Positions 1-25,296 of a stretch of 25,532 nucleotides of DNA are shown one piece after another. The DNA lies in IMG/VR virus record IMGVR_UViG_3300005531_000030, positions 1 through 25,532 of that record, one strand, 5' to 3'. The notes under the pieces were generated by a model that did no database searches, was not told the DNA's origin, and saw only the letters and a list, made by a program, of their open reading frames with translations. Origin of the DNA: a virus. Every line of letters begins with the position of its first letter. Position 1 is the stretch's first letter. The translations under genes were made by a program, and so were the position numbers.

Positions 1-104
1 TCTATTTCAGAGATGACGGTTTGGCGCTCCGCCGCTGGCAGGCCGCGAAGCAATGCGTCGCGCTGGCCAGCATGGGATAAACGAAAGTAGACTGTAGCTT
101 GCAT
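1..104 (-). CDS. Partial small protein, cut by window edge
   Basis: A leftward reading frame opens with ATG at 104-102 and runs off the left edge without a stop. The visible start is MQATVYFRLSHAGQRDALLR, followed by about 14 more residues. The start is supported by an AGAAAGAGAG purine tract a few bases upstream and by the same hairpin leader (116-139) that precedes the next gene of the operon (191-427). I do not recognise the family. It is the most distal visible member of a leftward operon of very small genes. Because it is truncated, its length and function cannot be judged. Confidence 0.6.
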   Translation of the reverse strand, partial: MQATVYFRLSHAGQRDALLRGLPAAERQTVISEI

Positions 105-115
105 GGTGATACTCT

Positions 116-139
116 CTTTCTGCCCCGATGGGGCATGTG
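116..139 (-). repeat. Leader hairpin repeat, copy A
   Basis: This 24-bp sequence is identical to 436-459. Read on the minus strand it contains GCCCC-ATC-GGGGC, a 5-bp GC stem with a three-base loop, followed by AGAAAG (the Shine-Dalgarno) and then an ATG about a dozen bases later. Each copy therefore sits directly in the 5' leader of a small leftward gene. It could be a translational control element, an RNA-stability hairpin or a recombination joint between gene cassettes. Confidence 0.75.
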
Positions 140-174
140 ATGTCTGACTGGACTCATCAGCACGCGCTATACGC

Positions 175-207
175 GTGGACGCGATAGGACTTATCGCATT
201 TCGTCCT
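175..207 (-). repeat. Stop-codon hairpin repeat, copy A
   Basis: This is a 33-bp repeat of 468-500 with two differences. Its core GCGATAGGACTTATCGC is an inverted repeat (6-bp arms). On the minus strand the stem contains the TAA stop of the gene at 191-427, and the repeat encodes the shared C-terminal end (Asp-Glu-x-Arg-stop). It lacks a T-tract, so it is not a classical terminator; it may be an mRNA 3' end stabiliser or a cassette boundary. Confidence 0.7.
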
Positions 208-427
208 GAGATGCGGCAGCAAGCACGCGGTAGGCTATCCCGCCATGCAAAGAGCGGACGGGCACCGCGCCGCGTCGTATCACGGAGTTGCGCAGCGCTT
301 CGGCGTAGCGAGTAGCATAAGATTTCGCCGCGCCGCGTAGCCGATACTGGAGGTAGGTGGCAATTGTGTAGAGACGACCTGATGCGGTCGTCTTGAGGTA
401 GTCCTGAGTGTATTGAGATTCTCTCAT
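191..427 (-). CDS. Small basic hypothetical protein, 78 aa
   Basis: An Arg/Tyr-rich 78-residue protein starting MRESQYTQDYLKTTASGRLY and ending in DEMR. ATG at 427-425 is preceded on the minus strand by AGAAAGG and by the hairpin repeat at 436-459, which decides the start. No TM segment, Cys cluster or recognisable domain is visible; the net charge is positive, so nucleic-acid or host-protein binding is conceivable but unproven. It lies in the leftward small-gene operon between a micro membrane protein and a truncated gene, which is typical of phage early or accessory regions. Family unknown. Confidence 0.65.
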   Translation of the reverse strand: MRESQYTQDYLKTTASGRLYTIATYLQYRLRGAAKSYATRYAEALRNSVIRRGAVPVRSLHGGIAYRVLAAASQDEMR

Positions 428-435
428 GGTGTTAC

Positions 436-459
436 CTTTCTGCCCCGATGGGGCATGTG
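436..459 (-). repeat. Leader hairpin repeat, copy B
   Basis: Identical over 24 bp to 116-139. On the minus strand it forms the GCCCC-ATC-GGGGC hairpin directly upstream of the Shine-Dalgarno and ATG of the gene at 191-427. Confidence 0.75.
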
Positions 460-6939: not shown

Positions 6940-7149
6940 ATGAGTTTCGCCATTACCGCTTTTGTCTCATTCATCGCTGGATTCGCCGTATCCGCTTTCC
7001 TTGGCGGCCCCATCGGGAAGGAAGAGGCGATTCTGTCAGCCGCGATCAAGGGTGAACTTGCCGTGCTGGAACGCGCCGCGCTCGCCGACGCGCGGAATCT
7101 CGCTTCGCACGTGCTCGCGTTCGTCAAGAGGATGCGCTCGATTCTGTGA
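6940..7149 (+). CDS. Single-TM hypothetical protein, 69 aa
   Basis: Starts MSFAITAFVSFIAGFAVSAF with TAGGAG just upstream, which selects 6940 over the in-frame extension to 6727 that overlaps the holin. A TM helix (residues 4-22) is followed by a charged helix (KEEAILSAAIKGELAVLERA). Topology resembles small lysis accessory proteins such as antiholins or i-spanins, but no defining motif is present. Its stop overlaps the GTG of TerL (GTGA). Confidence 0.6.
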   Translation: MSFAITAFVSFIAGFAVSAFLGGPIGKEEAILSAAIKGELAVLERAALADARNLASHVLAFVKRMRSIL

Positions 7150-8648
7150 CGGCGGACCTTGGCAAGCTGCGCGATCTAAGGCAGCGGGCGCGCACGGACC
7201 TGTTCTGGCTTTCGCGCCACATCCTTGGCTATGACTTTCAAGAGGACGTGCATCTTCCGGCGTGCGCGTTCCTCGTGAAGAAGGACCCGCGCAAGCCGTT
7301 CGCCGAGCAAAGCGAAATCAAGCAGCGCCTTTGGCTCGATCCGCGCGGGCACTTCAAGACGACGCTGGACATCGCCGACGTAATTCAGTGGATTCTGTGC
7401 TTTCCCGACATTCGCATCCTGATTATGACCGGCACGCGCGATCTCGCCGCGCGGATGCTTCAGGAATGCAAGAACCACTTCCAGATGAACGAGCGGCTGC
7501 GCGCGCTCTTTCCCGAATACGCCGCGCCGCAAAAGGACTGGGGCACACAGGACTCGTTCGTGGTTCCGGCGCGAAGGAACTGGCGGCTGCGCGAGCCTAC
7601 CGTGTCGATTTCGACGGTCGATTCGGTCAAAGCCGGGTCGCACTACGACCTGATCAAATGCGACGACCTGGTGAACGAAATCAACGCGGGCACGCGCGAC
7701 CAAATCGAGAAAACGATCAAGGCGTTCAACTACACGACGCCGCTGCTTGAGCCATTCGGCTACCGGGACGTGATCGGGACGCGCTACGACTATTCGGATT
7801 TGTACGGCTGGCTGACGGACACGAACGACGGCAAGACGCGCATTTTCCGCCGCGCGTGCTGGTCGGTCAGCGACAAGGGCGAGTATACGCTGCTCTTCCC
7901 GCAGCGCGCTCTGCCGGGCGGCAAGGTCGTCGGCTTCACGCTGGAGATGCTTCAAACCATCCAGCGCGACGATCCGTACCTGTTCAATTGCCAGTATCTC
8001 AACGATCCGTCGCCCATCGAGAAGCCCGACATTACCGAGGAGAACTTGCGGGCGCGTTTCGTCCCCATTACTTCCCTGCCGCGCGAGGGCCGCACGTTCA
8101 TCACGTGGGACCTGGGCTTTTCGAGCAAGCAATTCGCGGACTGGTCGGTCGGGGCCGTGGGGCGCTTCGACAACCAAGGGCGGCTGTTCATTCTCGACCT
8201 GATCCGGGGCCGCTACAGCGCCTACGAACTGGTGCAAATGATCCTGATGAGCGCGCGCAAATACCGCCCTGGCGCCGTGGGCATCGAGAAAAGCGGCGGC
8301 GCTCCGCTGATCGAGCCTGCTCTTATCGCGGCGGCGCGCGAGCACCGCGTGCACATGCCGCTCGACTGGATTCCGCATCCGACGAGCCGCAAGGTCGAGC
8401 GCATCGGCGGCCTCATCGCGCTCTTCAAGGACAACCGGCTGTTTTTCTCCGAAGCCATCGCGGACAAGGACCAGCTTGTGCGCGAGTTCGTCCGCTTTCC
8501 GCGCTACAAGCACGACGACATTCCCGACGCCTGCTCGATGCTTCTCACGTACCGCAACCGCACGGACATTGAATGGCCCGCCGAGGAAATCGAACTGATC
8601 TCCGCGCCGGTATGCGCTCCCGAACTCGGAGCGGGCTTGGTCGGCTAG
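7146..8648 (+). CDS. terL: Terminase large subunit, 500 aa
   Basis: The motor that drives DNA into the capsid and cuts it. GTG start overlaps the previous stop. ATPase: Walker A variant WLDPRGHFKTTLD (core residues 65-73) and Walker B LIKCDD (169-174), followed by the coupling motif region near TTPLLEPFGYRDVIGTRYDY. RNase H-fold nuclease: D322 in TFITWDLGF, E381 in VGIEKSG, and the Asp cluster KHDDIPDA (455-462). Length is normal for phage TerL. It works with TerS (5602) and docks on the portal encoded three bases downstream. Clear by motif order and spacing. Confidence 0.93.
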   Translation: MTADLGKLRDLRQRARTDLFWLSRHILGYDFQEDVHLPACAFLVKKDPRKPFAEQSEIKQRLWLDPRGHFKTTLDIADVIQWILCFPDIRILIMTGTRDLAARMLQECKNHFQMNERLRALFPEYAAPQKDWGTQDSFVVPARRNWRLREPTVSISTVDSVKAGSHYDLIKCDDLVNEINAGTRDQIEKTIKAFNYTTPLLEPFGYRDVIGTRYDYSDLYGWLTDTNDGKTRIFRRACWSVSDKGEYTLLFPQRALPGGKVVGFTLEMLQTIQRDDPYLFNCQYLNDPSPIEKPDITEENLRARFVPITSLPREGRTFITWDLGFSSKQFADWSVGAVGRFDNQGRLFILDLIRGRYSAYELVQMILMSARKYRPGAVGIEKSGGAPLIEPALIAAAREHRVHMPLDWIPHPTSRKVERIGGLIALFKDNRLFFSEAIADKDQLVREFVRFPRYKHDDIPDACSMLLTYRNRTDIEWPAEEIELISAPVCAPELGAGLVG

Positions 8649-8651
8649 CTT

Positions 8652-10739
8652 ATGGCACTTATTGACGCTCTTTTTCCCGAGCAATCGCGCGACGCTCAAA
8701 AAGCCTTCGCGCCCATCGAAAAGAAGGAACTTGCCTGGCCTGGCGAGATTCCGCCCGACACGGCGATCCTGAAGCGCGTCATTCAGGACATCAACCAGTC
8801 CGAGCACTACATCTACACGCGCGGCTGGCCCACGGAATGGCTCCGGTACGAGCGCCTGTATCTCTTTCAGGTTCCGATTCAATTCTGGGAAGGCACGCAA
8901 ATCCCCCGCGCGCACTTGGGCGTGCCGCTCGTTTATGAGCATGTCGAATCGACGCTGCCGCAAGTCATGCTCGGGCTTTTCAGCGACGTGCCTCCGTTCG
9001 AGTCGCGGCCTTATCCCGGCACGTCCGAGGATGCCGCGCGCGCGAACGACGCGCTGCTCGCCTGGGAACTGAAGCGCAGCAACTTCCGCGAGGAATTGCG
9101 CCTCGGAGTCAAGAGCGCGCTCATTTACGGCACGGGAATTTGGAAATGGGGATGGAAGCGCGAGACTCGCACGCGCGTCCGCAAAGTCCGCAAAGGGCCC
9201 GCGCGCATTGGCGTGACGAACGCGGACCTTGGGCTGGCGACGCCCGACGCGACGCAAATCACGGTTCCGAATCCCGAGAGCGAGGTCGAGAACGAAACGT
9301 ACGAGGAGCAAGTCAGCCTTCCAACGTTCGAGCACATCCACATCCGCCACGTTCTTTTCGACGCGGGCTTGCGCGTTCCCGACATCCGCAAGGCGAAGTG
9401 GGTGGCGCACCGTCTCTACATGACGCCGCTTCAGCTTGATTCCCTGCGCGACGAGGAAGGCTATGAGATTCCGCCGCGCGAGGTTCTCGCCGAACTCGCC
9501 ATGCCGCCGAAAGAGATGCCCGTGCAGTCATCGCTCGAAGTCTCGCCGCTCGACGTTGGCCAGGACTTCATGCCCGCGACGAACTTGTGGGGCTATCGCG
9601 CCACGCCGCGCCCTCAGGAAACGACCGCCGACCCGCTGCAATTGCCGCTCGAAGTGGTCGAGTACTGGACGCGCGACCACGTGTTCACCGTCGTGCAGCG
9701 CAAGCTCGTGATTCGCAAGGAGCACAACGTATTCGGCGAAATTCCCTTTTGCTCTCTGGTGCTTGGCGACTTGCCCGACTCTTTCTACGGCGTCGGCTAC
9801 GCGAAGCTCATCGGCAACGAGCAGCGCCTTCAGCAAGGCGTGCTCAATACGTTCCTCGACGATCTCTCGCTTTGCCTCAACACGCCTTTCATTCGCGTGC
9901 GAGGCGCGAACGTCCCGACGCAGCAGCTAAGGATGCGCCCCGGCGGCGTCATCGACACGGACACCAAGGACGGCATCGGCGTGCTGGAGCGCGAGCCTCT
10001 TGCGATGGAGACGTTCTCGGTTCTCGCGGCGTCCGACCAGCGTGCGCAGCGCCACACCGGCGCGATGGACATGGCCGTCCAAGGCGTGATGCCGACCGAG
10101 AAGTCGAGCGTGACGCGCACGGCGACCGGCGTGAACATGCTTTCAAGCGGCTCCGGCTCCCGGATGCAGTATCTCATCGAGAATATCGCCGCGCAGGTGT
10201 TCGTCCCAACGCTCGTTGCTTACCACAAAATGAACGCGCTCTATCTCGAACCGGAGCGCCTCGAAAGCATTCTCTCGAACGAACTGAACGTGGCGTACAA
10301 GGGCGATCCCATCGAGCTTGTGAACGCGCAGGTGGACTTCGACATTCTCGCGGCCTCGAAGCTGCAATCGCGCCGCGCGATGGCCCAGTCGCTTCCGCTG
10401 CTTTTCCAGTTCCTGCTTACCGAGCCGGTCATGCAGGGCCTTCAAGTCGAGGGCAAAAAAGTCAACATCGCCGAACTCGCCTCGATGCTCTTCGACGTGA
10501 GCGGCTGGCCGAATAAGCAGAACGTGATCGTCGATATGACGCCCGAGGACAAGCAATCCGCGCTGATGCAGAACCCCGCCGTGCAGCAGATGATGGCGCA
10601 GCAGGCCGCCGGAGCGCAAAAGCTCGACGCGCAAAAGCAGGTCATCGAGGAACAAAACATCGCGCGCGCTGGCCGTGACGTGATCCGCGAACTGATGAAG
10701 AAAGCCGAAGGGCCTGAAGTGGGCCTTGACTCGCTCTGA
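8652..10739 (+). CDS. Portal protein, P22-type, 695 aa
   Basis: Long portal of the P22-like type, directly after TerL. Characteristic parts are the N-terminal segment with HYIYTRGWPTEWLRYERLYL, the wing region with LGVKSALIYGTGIWKWGWKR, and the central region FGEIPFCSLVLGDLPDSFYG followed by helices around QRLQQGVLNTFLDDLSLCLN. The C-terminal part (about 615-690) is Gln/Ala-rich and helical, suited to a barrel extension. It forms the dodecameric ring at the capsid vertex through which DNA is packaged and ejected. The stop overlaps the next ATG (TGATG). Confidence 0.88.
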   Translation: MALIDALFPEQSRDAQKAFAPIEKKELAWPGEIPPDTAILKRVIQDINQSEHYIYTRGWPTEWLRYERLYLFQVPIQFWEGTQIPRAHLGVPLVYEHVESTLPQVMLGLFSDVPPFESRPYPGTSEDAARANDALLAWELKRSNFREELRLGVKSALIYGTGIWKWGWKRETRTRVRKVRKGPARIGVTNADLGLATPDATQITVPNPESEVENETYEEQVSLPTFEHIHIRHVLFDAGLRVPDIRKAKWVAHRLYMTPLQLDSLRDEEGYEIPPREVLAELAMPPKEMPVQSSLEVSPLDVGQDFMPATNLWGYRATPRPQETTADPLQLPLEVVEYWTRDHVFTVVQRKLVIRKEHNVFGEIPFCSLVLGDLPDSFYGVGYAKLIGNEQRLQQGVLNTFLDDLSLCLNTPFIRVRGANVPTQQLRMRPGGVIDTDTKDGIGVLEREPLAMETFSVLAASDQRAQRHTGAMDMAVQGVMPTEKSSVTRTATGVNMLSSGSGSRMQYLIENIAAQVFVPTLVAYHKMNALYLEPERLESILSNELNVAYKGDPIELVNAQVDFDILAASKLQSRRAMAQSLPLLFQFLLTEPVMQGLQVEGKKVNIAELASMLFDVSGWPNKQNVIVDMTPEDKQSALMQNPAVQQMMAQQAAGAQKLDAQKQVIEEQNIARAGRDVIRELMKKAEGPEVGLDSL

Positions 10740-12012: not shown

Positions 12013-12996
12013 TTGGCATATTCACCTGCATCGACCGTCACGACCACTGGATCGCTGACTCACCTTGCCACGATTCACTATGACGCCGTCGCGGTCGAGA
12101 ACTTCAAGGCGAACACGGCCTTCTACGAGGCGTGCGAAAAGCGCCAGCTTCCGCAGCGCGCCGGTCTCACGACTCAGTTGTTTGGCTATTCCGTGTTCGC
12201 GGCGAACACCACTCCCGGCACTGAAGGCACGGTAGGCAACGGCATCGCGCCGACGACCGTGACTCGCAGCGTCTCTCTCAACCAATATTTCGACTTCATT
12301 TCGTTTTCCGATTTGCTGGTCGAAACGGCGATTGACGATATCGTCGAAAACTCCGCAGCGGAAATGGGCTACCGCGCGGCTCTTACCGTCAATACCCTCA
12401 CTTCCACCGAGTTCGAGAACGCGGCGGGCGTCGCTGGCACGTCCATCGACCTGGCCGATAACGAGTTCTTCAACGCGGCGGTCGCGCGGCAGGCTGTGAT
12501 GTCCCTGCGCGGCCAGAACGTGAAGCCCAAAGCGGACGGCATGTTCGACGGCCTCATCCACCCCTTCGTGGCCTTCGATCTCGTGAACGACAACACGGCG
12601 GGCGGCGTTATCGACATCCTGAAGCACGTCGATAGCGGCGTCAACGCGATGCAGCGCGGCATTCAAGGATTCCGCGTCATCGAGCTTGCTGGCGTGCGCT
12701 GGATCGAAACGACGGCCGTGCCGACGTACTCGAACTATCCTTCCGCAGGGAAAACCGGATATGCGTCGTACGTTGTTGGCAAAGACGCCATTTTCGCCGT
12801 ATCGCTTGAGAACACGATGATTCCCGGCGAGAAGAACTTCCAGTTGATCGTCAAGACCTACCGCGATGGCAGCGTGGCCGACCCGGCCAACATCATTCGC
12901 GCGTCGGTCGCGTACAACTTCAAGTTCGCGGCTATCCGGCGTCCGGGCGCGGTGATGGGCCTTCGCCGGGTACGCAACGAAGCCTCCATTTCCTGA
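12013..12996 (+). CDS. Major capsid protein, N4-gp56 type, 327 aa
   Basis: HK97-fold major capsid protein of the N4-gp56 family, forming the icosahedral shell. Supporting segments are the N-terminal AFYEACEKRQLPQRAGLTTQ, the central QYFDFISFSDLLVETAIDDI, AALTVNTLTSTEFENAAG, MFDGLIHPFVAFDLVNDNTA, and the C-terminal GEKNFQLIVKTYRDGSVADP. The start appears to be TTG at 12013, eight bases after CAGGTAA; no ATG exists nearby. Gene order scaffold then capsid is standard. The C-terminus is basic (GLRRVRNEASIS). Its stop overlaps the next start (TGATG). Confidence 0.88.
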   Translation: MAYSPASTVTTTGSLTHLATIHYDAVAVENFKANTAFYEACEKRQLPQRAGLTTQLFGYSVFAANTTPGTEGTVGNGIAPTTVTRSVSLNQYFDFISFSDLLVETAIDDIVENSAAEMGYRAALTVNTLTSTEFENAAGVAGTSIDLADNEFFNAAVARQAVMSLRGQNVKPKADGMFDGLIHPFVAFDLVNDNTAGGVIDILKHVDSGVNAMQRGIQGFRVIELAGVRWIETTAVPTYSNYPSAGKTGYASYVVGKDAIFAVSLENTMIPGEKNFQLIVKTYRDGSVADPANIIRASVAYNFKFAAIRRPGAVMGLRRVRNEASIS

Positions 12997-14957: not shown

Positions 14958-16817
14958 TTGATCCGGCAAATCCCAATTCAGCCGGTCTATCTGAACCGCT
15001 TCATGACCGGTCTGTACACGCAGCGCAACCCGCTCGTCACGCCGTTCAGCGTCGTCGGCCTGCACATGATCGAGCGCAAGGACGCGCTCATCGGCGGCGC
15101 GAACGTCGAACTCACGAACCGCATGACGCTCGCGCGGCGTCCGGGCTTCACGAAATGGGACCCGAACCAGCTAGGCGCGAGCGAGATTCCCCGCGTGTTC
15201 GTCTCCGACCGCGATACGAGCAATCCCGCCGTCGTGCGCGTCTACGCCGATTTCACCACGTCCATCAAATCGAGCCAAGGCTCTGGATGGACGCTCGTAT
15301 TCACGCCTTCGGGCGGCGCGGCTCAGTGCCACTTCCAGCGCGTCGGCAAGGCGCTGTACATGGCGAATGGCTCCGACGCGAAGAAAGTTGTGGACGGCGT
15401 TTCCGGCGTCTCGAACTGGGGCATCGCGGCTCCCGTCACGGCTCCGACGCTTTCGTTCCCCGCTGGCTCGCTGACTCTCACGAGTGGCCGCGCGTACGTC
15501 TACACGTACGTCAATTCGGCGACCGGGCACGAATCGACAGCATCACCCGCGAGCGCCTCGACAGGACCAATTACGTCGAAGAACATTACGGTCCAGGGCA
15601 CGCAATCAACGGACCCGCAAGTCAACAAGATCAACATCTACTCGACCAAGGACGGAGGCTCGACGTTCTTCTTCAACGCGCAGATCGCCAATACCGCGTC
15701 GTGGTCGTACACGGACTCTACGCCGGATGCCTCGCTCAACACGCTGCAAACCGCGCCAATCAACCATATCAATGATCCGCCGCCGCAAGGGCTGGCGAAT
15801 ATTTGCTTTTGGTCCGGGCGCATGTGGGGCAGCGCCGGTAATATTCTCTACTACAACGCGGGGCCGGACGCGCTAAACGGCGTTCCCGAGGAGTGCTGGC
15901 CTCCCGCGAACACGTTCACGTTCCCGCTCAAGATCATAAAAGTCCAGCCGACCTCGCAGGCGCTCATCGTGTTCACCGCCGAGACTTCCTACGCCATCGC
16001 CGGGCTCGACGCCTCGACGTTCTACGCGCAAGAGTGGATTCACGGCCTTGGCGTGCTGTCGCCGAACTGCGTGGCCAGCGACGGCGATTCTCTTTACGTT
16101 TATTCGACGCAGCGGCAATTGTTCTCCATCGGGGGAAGCGGCAGCGGCGAAATCGGCTTTTCCATCGCCGACACGATTCTCTCCACGTTCGACCCTTCCG
16201 CGTCGTACGTCACCGTGCATCGCGCCGGTTCGCAGGACGTGGCGCTTTACATGGGCGATGGTTCGTCGAAAATAGCGCGGTACTCGCTGCCTCTTTCGGG
16301 ATGGTCGACGCTTTACTCGCCGGTGATGGGCTGCGGCGCGCTTCGTTCGGTTGAGACAAGCCCCGGCAACTATCAGCTTCTCGCCGGGCAGCCTTCCGCG
16401 CAAGGATTCGTATTCGCCCGCAATCCAAGCGTGTTCACCGACAACGGCACGGCCTATCCCGCCTCGGTCACTATCGGCACGCTGGTGCTCGCGCCTCCGG
16501 GCTTCATGGGCGAAGTCGAGGCGATTCTCACGGAAACAACCGCTGCGGGCTCGCAGCCAAGCGTGAGCGTGATGCCGGATGAAATCTCGGCCACGTTCAC
16601 CGCGCTGCCCGTCGCCGTGAATGAGCCGCCTGAATTTCCCGCGTCCACGACGCTCGCGGCGAACCGCTACTACTGGCGGAGCGCGCAAACTCCGCTGCCC
16701 GCGTTCGTCCGCAACCTGCAAGTGCAGCTTTCATGGCCCGCCGAAGCCGCGCAGAACGAATTGCTCGGATTCGGCATCATGCCGCCCGAACTTCAGACCA
16801 ATGTTCAACAGCAGTAA
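14958..16817 (+). CDS. Tail nozzle-like protein, 619 aa
   Basis: TTG start directly after the adaptor stop; no close ATG gives the same N-terminus (MIRQIPIQPVYLNRFMTGLY). Sequence features match the nozzle or tubular-B type of short-tailed phages: early FSVVGLHMIERKDALIGGAN, NRMTLARRPGFTKWDP, then repeated beta blades such as GLANICFWSGRMWGSAGNIL and QALIVFTAETSYAIAGLD, with Tyr/Ser-rich turns typical of a beta-propeller. It would extend the tail channel below the adaptor. The last 17 bases overlap the next gene. Confidence 0.75.
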   Translation: MIRQIPIQPVYLNRFMTGLYTQRNPLVTPFSVVGLHMIERKDALIGGANVELTNRMTLARRPGFTKWDPNQLGASEIPRVFVSDRDTSNPAVVRVYADFTTSIKSSQGSGWTLVFTPSGGAAQCHFQRVGKALYMANGSDAKKVVDGVSGVSNWGIAAPVTAPTLSFPAGSLTLTSGRAYVYTYVNSATGHESTASPASASTGPITSKNITVQGTQSTDPQVNKINIYSTKDGGSTFFFNAQIANTASWSYTDSTPDASLNTLQTAPINHINDPPPQGLANICFWSGRMWGSAGNILYYNAGPDALNGVPEECWPPANTFTFPLKIIKVQPTSQALIVFTAETSYAIAGLDASTFYAQEWIHGLGVLSPNCVASDGDSLYVYSTQRQLFSIGGSGSGEIGFSIADTILSTFDPSASYVTVHRAGSQDVALYMGDGSSKIARYSLPLSGWSTLYSPVMGCGALRSVETSPGNYQLLAGQPSAQGFVFARNPSVFTDNGTAYPASVTIGTLVLAPPGFMGEVEAILTETTAAGSQPSVSVMPDEISATFTALPVAVNEPPEFPASTTLAANRYYWRSAQTPLPAFVRNLQVQLSWPAEAAQNELLGFGIMPPELQTNVQQQ

Positions 16818-19155
16818 TTTCGATCTCGGCAGCGGCCCTCCGAAGCCCGTGGAAGGCAATCCGGTATCGTCCGTTCAAACGTCGGTGCCGTGGGTGCCGG
16901 GCTACGCTCTTGGAACGATTCCGCCGAATCAGCTATTGCTGACGCTCGGCAAAAAGACAGCCGCGAGTTCGCCGATTATCGTGACGAAAGCCATCAGCGT
17001 GCAGGGCAGCGCGGCTTCCGGCGGCGGCATTTCCTCGATGAGCGTAACGGAATCGCCCGTAAAACAGCAGGACCGCACGTTCTCGCTTGTCAGCGTCTCA
17101 TTCTTCCGCGATCCGTCCGACACAACGTTCGCGGGCGTGCGTATCTGGTTCATTGGATACAAGGGCAGCGCGAATCCTGTGCTGATGACAAGCGCCACGG
17201 ATTCGCCGGTTTCTTTTCTCGCCGAATCGACGAAAGAAACCGTGATGGTTGTGCTTCAGCGGTACTCGACCGACGGCTCGATGCAGGACTTCAACTTGTG
17301 TCCTTCCGCGCCTCTCACGCTCGACGGCGTGGTTTCGCCTCCGCCCGCGCCGACAATCTCGCAGCCGCTTGTCGCCATTCCCCTCGGCTATCAGTTCGCT
17401 TTCAACCAGCTTAGCGGCTTGCTCAGCGACGTAATCGACTCGTATCGCGTCTACCGCAATCCGGTAAATAACCCCACGACCGCCGCGCTATACAACACCA
17501 TCAAGCACGACCCAACAAACCTCGGCAGCGTGGTCGTTCAGGACACTACGGGCGGCGGCCAAACGCTCTACTACTGGGTAAGCGCGGTCAACACCAGCGG
17601 GCTTGAGTCGTCCAAGACAGCGGCGCAATCATCGGCGGTAACGAGCGGCACGGCGAATCTCGACACGGACGTGAATGACGGCTCGAACTTCGGGCGCTCG
17701 CTCATCCAAAGCGTGAATTTAGTTCCCGACTCGGAACTGAAGCACGTATCGCTTTACTGGCCGGTGCGCTCTGGCTCGTTCAGCGTCGTATCGTCTCCCT
17801 CAGCGAGCGGCGGCGCTGCGGGACAAGCCTGGCAGTCTCCCGCCGGAACCGGCTTGCCAAGCGGTGCCACGTATGTGAGGTCCGTGCCATTTCCGGTCAC
17901 GGCTGGCAAAACATATACGCTCTCGGCGTGGATTGACGCAAGCCACGTCACATCCGGCTCGCCATTCGTCGCGGTTGAGGATGCGGAACTTTCAACCGGG
18001 TATGGCGCGGCAAGCCAGACAGCGGGGCAATCAGGGCGCATTACGGCCACTTTCACCATCCCAACCGGCGTGACTTCTGCGGTTCTTTTGGCGCACACGA
18101 ATGACTGCGTCATCGCATCCGGCCAATTCCTTTACTTTTCTGGGTTTCAAGTAGTGCTTGGCTCGAACGCGGGCGTCTACACGCCAAGCGTTTTGGACCA
18201 GCTTTCCGGCACGCCGCTCGTTGACCTGAGCAACTCGAATCATCTGAACAAGAACCTCGACAACATCGGCGATGGCCCCATTTTCAAGCGCCTGTCGAAC
18301 GTCGCCAGCGACAATACGCTTCACGTCTCGACGCCAATTAATAACCAAGGATCGATTCTCTCGGCTGGCGATAACGCATTCTTCAGCTACTCCAGCACGA
18401 CGACAAGCATCAGCATTTGGAACACCGCATTCTCCATTCCGCGACCGGACGGCACGAATGTCTCGATTCCCGCGAATGGTTCAAGCGGCTCCCCGGCTTG
18501 GACCTTCACAGGACTGCATCCATCGACGAACTATCACTTTGGCGCGTACTACAATATGGGAAGCGGCACGGTTCAGGTAGTGCAATCCAATAATGTCACC
18601 CTTCCGGGAACAATCGCATGGGTAGTCCAAACACTTAGCGCGGATGGGCGCATTCCGCTTTTCACGGATTGGGCGATATTGACGCCCGCTTCAGGCACGG
18701 GCGGCGGTGGCGGATCGCCAGGCGGAGGCGGCGGAACGTGCCCCGCCGAGGACCAGCTTATCGAAACGCGCGAGCTTGGCTTCATTCCCGCCATCGAACT
18801 GCGCCCCGGCCTTCACGTGCGCGGCTGGCACGATGAGTGGAACGCGGTCGAATCCGCCGAGGCAATCGAAGGCTGGCTGCATCGCGTCGTCGCGGGCGGC
18901 GAGGAGTATCGCGTCGATCTGAATCACCGCTGGCTTCCCGAAGGCACCGCGCCCGATGCGCCGCAAGAGGAATGGCGGCTATCCTCGGAACTCGCATCCG
19001 GCGACGTGCTTCAGGCCGCCGATGGCTCACTTGCCGTGGTTGAAAGCGTAAGCCCGGCTTACTGGGGCCGCTACGTCAAGATTCGCGCGGCCAATCAGCG
19101 GTTCAAGATCGGCAAGCTAATCGCGCACAATTACGCCACACTTCCCGGATTATGA
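16801..19155 (+). CDS. Modular tail protein with C-terminal Hint domain, 784 aa
   Basis: ATG at 16801 starts MFNSSNFDLGSGPPKPVEGN; the frame stays open to 16621, but that part is Arg-rich shadow of the nozzle gene. Modules in order: N-terminal virion-anchoring region (1-175); FnIII-like domain (about 181-283, with SYRVYRNPVNN and TLYYWVSAVNTSGL); a carbohydrate-binding-module-like jelly roll (about 300-460); a second FnIII-like part; a Gly-rich linker (634-646); and a Hint domain from Cys647 (CPAEDQLIETRELGFIP) through the histidine block VDLNHRWL to the terminal AHN at 775-777, leaving seven residues. The HN followed by Tyr resembles bacterial intein-like type A domains. Likely a receptor-binding tail component that may self-process. 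Confidence 0.75.
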   Translation: MFNSSNFDLGSGPPKPVEGNPVSSVQTSVPWVPGYALGTIPPNQLLLTLGKKTAASSPIIVTKAISVQGSAASGGGISSMSVTESPVKQQDRTFSLVSVSFFRDPSDTTFAGVRIWFIGYKGSANPVLMTSATDSPVSFLAESTKETVMVVLQRYSTDGSMQDFNLCPSAPLTLDGVVSPPPAPTISQPLVAIPLGYQFAFNQLSGLLSDVIDSYRVYRNPVNNPTTAALYNTIKHDPTNLGSVVVQDTTGGGQTLYYWVSAVNTSGLESSKTAAQSSAVTSGTANLDTDVNDGSNFGRSLIQSVNLVPDSELKHVSLYWPVRSGSFSVVSSPSASGGAAGQAWQSPAGTGLPSGATYVRSVPFPVTAGKTYTLSAWIDASHVTSGSPFVAVEDAELSTGYGAASQTAGQSGRITATFTIPTGVTSAVLLAHTNDCVIASGQFLYFSGFQVVLGSNAGVYTPSVLDQLSGTPLVDLSNSNHLNKNLDNIGDGPIFKRLSNVASDNTLHVSTPINNQGSILSAGDNAFFSYSSTTTSISIWNTAFSIPRPDGTNVSIPANGSSGSPAWTFTGLHPSTNYHFGAYYNMGSGTVQVVQSNNVTLPGTIAWVVQTLSADGRIPLFTDWAILTPASGTGGGGGSPGGGGGTCPAEDQLIETRELGFIPAIELRPGLHVRGWHDEWNAVESAEAIEGWLHRVVAGGEEYRVDLNHRWLPEGTAPDAPQEEWRLSSELASGDVLQAADGSLAVVESVSPAYWGRYVKIRAANQRFKIGKLIAHNYATLPGL

Positions 19156-19484
19156 AACAGAAGCTCATCGCAATGCTCACTGACACCGCCGCGCTCCGGC
19201 TTGAGGAGCAGGCAACGCGCTCGATCCTCGGCGACCATCACTACATCGCCATTGAAGGCGGCGTGATTCTTGTTTGCTTTCCGCCGCGCTATACAGCAGC
19301 GCGCAATTTCCTCGTTTCCTTTGGCGCTTTGGTTTTGCCGCCGCGCCACGATCCAGTCAACACGGCTGGCGAGAAGCTGGCCGCAGCTTCGGGCGGCGTG
19401 ATCTCCGCTAGCGACACCGGCTTCGCCGCCGCGCAAAAACTTCACGAACATCACAAATGGCCCTTGCTCGATCCGCACGAATGA
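19152..19484 (+). CDS. Hypothetical protein after Hint tail protein, 110 aa
   Basis: Starts MKQKLIAMLTDTAALRLEEQ with ATG overlapping the previous stop (ATGA). Mixed alpha/beta with the hydrophobic segment HYIAIEGGVILVCFPPRYTA and a His-rich end (KLHEHHKWPLLDPHE). No known family. Tight coupling to the Hint tail protein suggests a partner such as a chaperone or processing factor, but this is only positional inference. Confidence 0.65.
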   Translation: MKQKLIAMLTDTAALRLEEQATRSILGDHHYIAIEGGVILVCFPPRYTAARNFLVSFGALVLPPRHDPVNTAGEKLAAASGGVISASDTGFAAAQKLHEHHKWPLLDPHE

Positions 19485-19492
19485 GGAGCGCA

Positions 19493-19912
19493 ATGAAGAA
19501 AATTTGGATTCGCCCCGCGCTCAAGTCCGACGCGCCGCTTTACGCCGAGTACGCCGCTGCCAATTCCGCGCGCTCGCTGTTCGACATGAACGTGCTCACG
19601 TACCCGAACACGTCGGTCTACGTCGCCCACAGCGGCGATCCGGTCATGTTCCTGCCGGTGCAAATGGCCGCCGTGCTCGAATCGCTCGCGCCAAAGCCCG
19701 GCCTGCCGCGCTCGGAGCAAGCCCGCGCCCTCGCCGAAATCGTCACGTCGGTCGTATACGACGCATCGCGCCAGGGCGTGCGCGAAATCTACTTCCTGAG
19801 CGCCGACGCTCCGACCATCGAGTTCGCCAAGCGCCACGGCTTCGAGGAAGTGCGCCACACCGTGCTTCGCCTGAAGCTCGGCGCTATCGAGGAACCTCAT
19901 GCAGCCCATTAA
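19493..19912 (+). CDS. GNAT-fold acetyltransferase-like protein, 139 aa
   Basis: Starts MKKIWIRPALKSDAPLYAEY; the ATG at 19493 has GAGGAG upstream and is preferred over in-frame ATGs at 19481 and 19457. N-terminal pattern IRPAL-x-DAPLY and the C-terminal FAKRHGFEEVRHTVLRLKL (the GF block after an Ala-helix) follow the GNAT acyltransferase plan. The acetyl-CoA loop (Q/R-x2-G-x-G/A) is not clearly present, so it may be a non-catalytic GNAT fold as in some phage virion proteins. It sits among the ejection-protein genes and overlaps the next gene by 14 bases. Confidence 0.65.
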   Translation: MKKIWIRPALKSDAPLYAEYAAANSARSLFDMNVLTYPNTSVYVAHSGDPVMFLPVQMAAVLESLAPKPGLPRSEQARALAEIVTSVVYDASRQGVREIYFLSADAPTIEFAKRHGFEEVRHTVLRLKLGAIEEPHAAH

Positions 19913-24261: not shown

Positions 24262-24444
24262 ATGCTTCAATGGCTCTTTTACCCAGTTATCGTGATCGTC
24301 ATTACCGCCATCGGAGCGGCATGGCGGCTAAGCGGCACCATCACTCGAATCGACACGAACGTGACCGAAATCAAGACAAACCACTTGCCGCACATTGAAA
24401 TGCGGCTGGACCGCCTGGAGAACAAGCATCATGGTTCTCGTTAA
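24262..24444 (+). CDS. TM plus coiled-coil lysis accessory protein, 60 aa
   Basis: MLQWLFYPVIVIVITAIGAA forms one TM helix, followed by a predicted helix SGTITRIDTNVTEIKTNHLP and DRLENKHHGSR. This small TM-plus-heptad layout resembles haemolysin XhlA-like proteins and some phage lysis accessory proteins. The gene overlaps the endolysin by 14 bases in another frame, which ties it to lysis. No strong Shine-Dalgarno is visible. Role inferred from topology and neighbours. Confidence 0.6.
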   Translation: MLQWLFYPVIVIVITAIGAAWRLSGTITRIDTNVTEIKTNHLPHIEMRLDRLENKHHGSR

Positions 24445-24793
24445 GCCCGGTGTGTCGTTCTCGGCCATCGCGCCCGCTGGATTCCGCATCCTGTCCGCGC
24501 TGGAGAGCGTGTCGCGCCGCCTGGGGATCAGCCTGACCATCACGAGCGCCTGCGACGGCGAACACAGCGGCCCGGGCGATCCGCACCATCGCGGCGAAGC
24601 CTATGACGTGCGCTCGCATGGCGTGAATGCGAAGGACACGGTGCTTCTGGCCGTGATGCGCGAGCTTGGGGAGCCGCAGCCGGAAAGCGGCGGCTTTGTC
24701 ACACGCTGCTTCTTCGGCTGGATCGAGAACGCGGGCTCGGACAACGAGCACTTTCACTTCCAGTTGCGCCACGGCGCTGAGTATACCGAATGA
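24431..24793 (+). CDS. M15-type peptidase endolysin, 120 aa
   Basis: ATG at 24431 starts MVLVKPGVSFSAIAPAGFRI; the extension to 24395 is overlap shadow. It carries the zinc peptidase signature of the M15 family: H52-x2-G-x-A-x-D59 within PHHRGEAYDVRSHG, and the second motif EHFHF with H107 and H109. These give the two histidines and the aspartate that hold zinc, plus the catalytic region. M15 enzymes cut peptide bonds in peptidoglycan stems (L-Ala-D-Glu or D-Ala-D-Ala). The short single-domain form without signal peptide or cell-wall-binding domain suits a Gram-negative host and requires a holin for export. Confidence 0.85.
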   Translation: MVLVKPGVSFSAIAPAGFRILSALESVSRRLGISLTITSACDGEHSGPGDPHHRGEAYDVRSHGVNAKDTVLLAVMRELGEPQPESGGFVTRCFFGWIENAGSDNEHFHFQLRHGAEYTE

Positions 24794-25296
24794 CGCTCGC
24801 GCTCGTTCTGCAACTCTCTGGATTCATTCTCGCCATTGCCGCGCTCGTTCTGCATTGGTCCCATTTGGATTTTGTCGCCGCGTTCGGCGTTCACGTCGCT
24901 GGCGACGCGCTGTTTATCGCCAAGGAGGGCATTCCGTTGCCTGGCTTCTCAAAACTCAAGCAGTTCTTTCTCTCGCACGTGAAGCTACTGCCGTGGTCGC
25001 AGTTCGCTTTCACGATGCTCGCGCTCCTTTCGCTTCTCGAATTTGCCAAGGGACCGCACCGTACCCTGGCGCACGCCGCATTCCTCGCGGCCACCGGCAT
25101 CGCGTCCGTGGCGTTCGTTGCCGGGCTGAAGAAAGCTCCCGATAAGCCGGTGAGCGAGCGGCACCTGCTGCAAGGCGGCGGCCTCGGCGTGGCGCTCGCT
25201 TTGGGAGCCAAGCTGAATCCCGCGCTCGCCACGCTGGCCTTTGTCGCGCTGGCCGTGTCGCAAGCAGGCCAGTGGTACGATGAAATTTACCCGTAA
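24790..25296 (+). CDS. Multi-TM membrane protein, possible holin, 168 aa
   Basis: Starts MTLALVLQLSGFILAIAALV with ATGA overlap on the endolysin stop. Predicted TM helices around residues 4-22, 26-45, 72-90, 95-113 and 130-155. Charged loops lie between (KEGIPLPGFSKLKQFFLSHV; KKAPDKPVSERH). The gene is the last rightward gene and directly follows the endolysin, so a holin or lysis regulator is plausible; however, five TM segments is more than usual for holins, and no family is recognised. Confidence 0.65.
   Translation: MTLALVLQLSGFILAIAALVLHWSHLDFVAAFGVHVAGDALFIAKEGIPLPGFSKLKQFFLSHVKLLPWSQFAFTMLALLSLLEFAKGPHRTLAHAAFLAATGIASVAFVAGLKKAPDKPVSERHLLQGGGLGVALALGAKLNPALATLAFVALAVSQAGQWYDEIYP

Follow-up and report, generated by a model that had tools for sequence, protein, structure and literature searches.

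The uncultured phage record IMGVR_UViG_3300005531_000030 of IMG/VR, source of the 25.5-kb stretch analyzed here (25,532 nt; hereafter the window), contains a tail-protein gene whose C-terminal end resembles a Hint domain. The locus therefore raises two questions: whether this is a real Hint module and, if so, what it does to the protein that carries it. The gene lies on the plus strand, as do the genes for the terminase large subunit (7146-8648), an SU10-type portal protein (8652-10739; Pfam SU10_portal, E 7e-37), the major head protein (12013-12996), and a virion protein directly upstream that resembles internal-virion and head-closure proteins (14958..16817; PHROG 511, internal virion protein, E 2.7e-20; PHROG 8040, head closure, E 1e-8). 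The tail gene itself (16801..19155) translates into 784 amino acids. Its frame is open already from 16621; a start at the ATG at 16801 is plausible and gives a 17-nt overlap with the upstream gene. The ATG of the next gene lies at 19152, within the stop region of this open reading frame.

By means of the neighbor gene at 14958..16817 we located related phages (L014, L016, L017, and G002/L009), in which the same upstream gene is followed by a protein of only 135-158 amino acids that has no Hint domain. These short proteins match residues 77-173 of the window protein (17029..17319, plus strand; phmmer E 2e-10, 8e-10, and 2.7e-6). The window gene thus retains the conserved N-terminal tail domain and continues for another ~600 residues, which close with the Hint domain; judging from this sequence comparison, the extra residues would most simply have been gained. 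Ahead of the Hint domain, the preliminary description of this DNA, made by eye, had placed FnIII-like and carbohydrate-binding-like modules. The former receive no support from Pfam; the latter coincide with a weak match at 17890..18099 (plus strand; Pfam CBM_4_9, E 7e-4, below the gathering cut-off; PHROG 21973, tail protein, E 1.5e-4). A Gly-rich linker, SGTGGGGGSPGGGGGT (18691..18738, plus strand), follows just before the predicted N-terminal cleavage point, and such a linker is also found upstream of the Hint domain in most relatives.

The Hint domain extends from Cys647 to Asn777 (18739..19131, plus strand), as delimited by a profile of its relatives, an AlphaFold2 model, and structure comparison (see below). 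Cys647 (18739..18741) is Cys1, the block A nucleophile, and aligns with residue 1 of inteins. Block B reads D706-L-N-H709 (18916..18927), and His776-Asn777 (19126..19131) form block G, the predicted site of Asn cyclization. All 98 non-window members of the family have Cys1, the block-B His, and the terminal His-Asn. Block B is T/S-x-x-H in the relatives, with Thr or Ser in 97 of the 98; His709 is retained in the window copy, and Asp706 in place of the Thr is found there only. The block-B Thr is common in inteins, yet not universal. After Asn777 there remain seven residues (YATLPGL; 19132..19152), with Tyr778 at +1, which is not Cys, Ser, or Thr, and Ala rather than Lys at +2; the stop codon follows residue 784, 8 codons past Asn777. 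Translation bears out the positions that the preliminary description gave for Cys647, Asp706-Leu-Asn-His709, and His776-Asn777-Tyr778 and the Gly-rich linker that it saw before Cys647, and the Asp that it singled out in block B is both real and unusual.

Taken alone, the window domain has no curated match in Pfam, NCBIfam, PHROG, or PDB sequences, and as a single query it gave nothing useful in tblastn searches of phages and plasmids or in scans of viral and genome contigs. Relatives were reached through a DNA pattern (Gly-Gly-x-Cys-Pro ... [DE]-L-x-P-G), which, amid 10 chance matches, picked up one true relative, L038. This tail protein contains a Phage-tail_3 domain and closes with a Gly linker and a recognizable Hint domain, the latter aligning with terminase inteins and with the tail protein of a faecal phage record. 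From L038 we found L040, that faecal phage record (L041), and then genomes of Sphingomonas, Sphingopyxis, and Corallococcus (L042-L045). A profile of these picked out strong Myxococcota members (hits at E 1e-6 or better in 25 of 146 genomes, a part of them ordinary BIL or toxin Hints), and 3 of 298 Sphingomonadales genomes matched at 1e-15; the final scan of viral contigs gave 69 loci. Since the pattern used to retrieve the viral-contig relatives included HN-[IMV]-K, these are left out of any judgment on the Lys; for the invariance of the His-Asn, which that pattern favors as well, the 31 members found only through the profile are the best guide. Several phage proteins in BFVD are already named Hint. 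Weaker-scoring Hint/BIL domains occur in large bacterial proteins (L053, L054, L058, and L086), most of them upstream of further residues.

Against a profile of 96 relatives, from which the window and the pattern-found seeds L038 and L040 had been omitted, the window domain scores 97.4% probability in hhalign (E 9e-12, residues 1-131); 115 slices of the same genome score at most 1.9%, and 60 shuffles at most 4.5%. An earlier profile of 32 members gave 95.8% (E 6.8e-9), and the window protein matches one viral relative, L165, in a direct pairwise comparison (phmmer E 1.3e-5). AlphaFold2, given the window domain with seven aligned relatives, returns a Hint fold (pLDDT 84, pTM 0.75). From the single sequence the model is uninformative (pLDDT 37), so the fold result rests partly on the aligned relatives. 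The best Foldseek matches to the model (E 1e-8) are BIL2 of T. thermophila, the gp41-1 intein, and a BIL domain of C. thermocellum. VIA aligns the model with solved Hint structures over ~123-137 residues at Z 17-18 (maximum 18.4), in a register that places model residue 17 (Cys647) on intein residue 1 and model residue 147 (Asn777) on the last intein residue, the Mtu RecA intein (1..440) being one example of this end-to-end register. We conclude that the window domain is a genuine Hint module and that it resembles A-type BIL domains. The earlier proposal of a Hint domain at the end of a tail protein, resembling type A BIL domains, is upheld by the profile with its controls, by the predicted fold with its BIL and mini-intein neighbors, and by a Cys1, block-B His, and His-Asn followed by a non-nucleophilic Tyr.

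The window copy belongs to a broad family of C-terminal tail Hint domains, borne by tail proteins of at least five kinds and found in viral contigs, sphingomonads, and Myxococcota. By PHROG assignment the carriers include tail assembly proteins (32, gpI-like), gpJ-like proteins (31 and 5616), and members of 1101, 376, and 5911. The Hint domain stands at the end of the open reading frame in nearly all members, followed in most by 4-16 residues; the exceptions are two relatives with 131-163 amino acids after the Hint and one with 27. In the former two, the viral loci L132 and L133, the residues continue past the terminal His-Asn, so that the Hint is internal there. A Gly- or Pro/Gly-rich linker usually precedes the domain, some members having a Pro-rich linker or none: Among the first 33 members, half of the 20 residues preceding Cys1 are Gly, compared with 11% of the 20 before those. 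The +1 residue across the 98 relatives is Ile, Val, Leu, Ala, Met, or rarely Thr, and never Cys or Ser, and Lys occupies +2 in 29 of the 31 members found by profile, that is, without selection for Lys. Close pairs show purifying selection on the Hint part (median dN/dS 0.22; 139 pairs, none of them with the window copy, which has no close relatives). We found no conserved neighbor gene directly after the Hint gene. The window gene agrees with this picture, its Hint domain lying C-terminally on a phage tail protein behind a flexible linker. In the open-access literature searched we found no paper that ties Hint domains to phage tail proteins and no earlier description of the family, which is apparently undescribed; subscription papers may exist.

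Among known systems, A-type BIL domains share with the tail Hints the fold, Cys1, the block-B His, the C-terminal His-Asn, and the lack of a +1 nucleophile. The tail Hints differ in their place at the very end of a phage tail protein, behind a Gly-rich linker and with a flank of 4-16 residues in most, and the window copy differs further in the Asp at block B. BIL2 from the BUBL1 polyubiquitin locus of T. thermophila (PDB 6y75, 6tmm), the best Foldseek match, likewise has the Hint fold, Cys1, and terminal Asn, but it sits between two ubiquitin-like domains, whereas the window Hint is terminal and we found no ubiquitin-like domain in the window protein. The mini-inteins gp41-1, Npu DnaB, and Ssp DnaB share the Hint fold, and their residue 1 and terminal Asn line up with Cys1 and the terminal Asn of the window domain (Z ~18); the window Hint, in contrast, is not inserted in a host site and lacks a C-extein nucleophile, making canonical splicing impossible. 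We also considered and rejected three named classes: an intein, because the Tyr at +1 and the seven-residue flank rule out a +1 nucleophile and two-extein ligation; a Hedgehog Hog domain, because there is no sterol-recognition region and the chain ends seven residues past Asn777; and a polymorphic-toxin PT-HINT, because no toxin domain lies downstream and the stop comes 8 codons after Asn777. Phage tailspikes and fibers can carry C-terminal self-cleaving chaperone modules, which are alike in being removable from the C-terminal end of a tail protein and unrelated in fold and chemistry. Lambda gpI and gpJ are connected to the family through other phages, in which a Hint domain is fused to gpI-like or gpJ-like proteins; the window carrier is a different type of tail protein, and to our knowledge lambda itself has no Hint domain.

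We consider it probable that the window gene encodes a virion tail or adsorption protein whose last 138 residues are a detachable, autoprocessing Hint module akin to A-type BIL domains. Computation shows the fold, the catalytic residues (all but the Thr), the lack of a nucleophile for splicing, and the C-terminal placement on tail proteins throughout the family; from these we infer, by analogy, cleavage together with its timing and purpose. A-type BIL domains, which have no +1 nucleophile, have been reported to yield mostly cleaved products (PMC7664689, PMC7765530), so by this analogy the module should cut at Thr646/Cys647 and at Asn777/Tyr778. After folding, Cys647 would attack the Thr646 carbonyl in an N-S acyl shift assisted by His709, leaving the Gly-rich linker with a terminal thioester that water or another small nucleophile would resolve. 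Asn777, helped by His776, would cyclize separately and free the seven-residue C-terminal flank. The mature tail protein would then comprise approximately residues 1-646, with the Gly-rich linker at its end, and the Hint domain may have served as a detachable C-terminal module for tail assembly or folding.

With Asp at block B the N-terminal step could be weaker, and this is likely enough to count as a rival: The window copy may be catalytically dead, or nearly so, and kept only to cap the tail protein as a folded domain. The Asp is joined by the absence of the family's +2 Lys (HN-YATLPGL) and by the divergence of this copy, which is the most divergent member and sits on the longest branch of the family tree, and the relatives of this very phage do without the module. 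However, Cys1, the block-B His, and the terminal His-Asn have all been kept in an intact reading frame although the domain is only ~30% identical to its relatives, and the kept residues are known mainly for catalysis. We regard a dead copy as unlikely.

Another rival holds that the module performs covalent attachment rather than cleavage: The Gly-rich C-terminus, held as a thioester on Cys1, would be passed to an amine, giving an ATP-free isopeptide bond as in ciliate BIL2. In most relatives the acceptor would possibly be the near-invariant Lys two residues after the His-Asn, in trans or in cis; its frequency (see above) speaks for this, as does the rank of BIL2, to which isopeptide bond formation and the dispensing of a ubiquitin-like protein have been ascribed (PMC8616854), as best structural match. 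Several relatives are moreover carried on gpI-like proteins (phrog_32), a family for which a ubiquitin-like domain and an adjacent JAB/NlpC gene have been reported (PMC1779556), and the neighbor in L043 is indeed JAB+NlpC. The window copy, however, lacks that Lys, no acceptor was identified, and the conserved Lys may be structural. We regard covalent attachment as quite unlikely, and it is rather improbable that, in phages of several bacterial groups, the Hint activates the Gly-rich ends of tail-tip and tail-assembly proteins as a thioester for an ATP-free, ubiquitin-like ligation to an amine in virion assembly or adsorption, the Lys after the His-Asn being acceptor or guide and the window a divergent form.

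An intein that truly splices, or a pretoxin HINT that sets a toxin free, would have a fold identical in kind by Foldseek, but the +1 residue is not Cys, Ser, or Thr, only seven residues follow, there is neither a toxin domain nor an insertion inside a conserved site, and we give this reading hardly any weight. Chance resemblance, with no Hint domain at all, would fit the lack of curated matches to the domain alone but is very improbable given the decoy-controlled profile, the fold evidence, and the phmmer match to L165.

The family suggests that in many phages the tail is cut, or chemically finished, by its own proteins. Should the module be active, tail proteins of many phages, prophages common in myxobacteria among them, would process their own C-termini, which would bear on virion protein prediction and on proteomic detection. 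Because some gpI-like proteins carry the Hint domain, it would also offer a testable way into gpI, which has been described as missing from the mature lambda tail and as having no clear function (PMC1779556). As compact, diverse, and naturally terminal Hint domains, the members are possible cleavage tools.

Several Myxococcota prophages carry a Hint domain both on the gpI-like protein and on a downstream fiber-like protein; one carries it on the gpI-like protein only. In L043 (5359-6417 and 8910-11045), and also in L130, L131, L134, L165, and L163, a Hint domain stands at the end of two separate tail genes, and in such doubly Hint-bearing phages and prophages the pair often consists of a gpI-like and a downstream fiber-like protein. 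Elsewhere in the window, a protein that resembles GNAT acetyltransferases by eye lies close after the tail gene (19457-19912; no Pfam match at 0.01). A 744-codon minus-strand frame, antisense to the terminase and portal genes (7176-9410), is probably a high-GC shadow frame. Further downstream, a peptidase-M15-like protein recognized by eye (24395-24793; HHRGEAYDVR ... EHFHFQ; no Pfam match) is possibly an endolysin and is followed by a hydrophobic protein of 168 amino acids (24790-25296).
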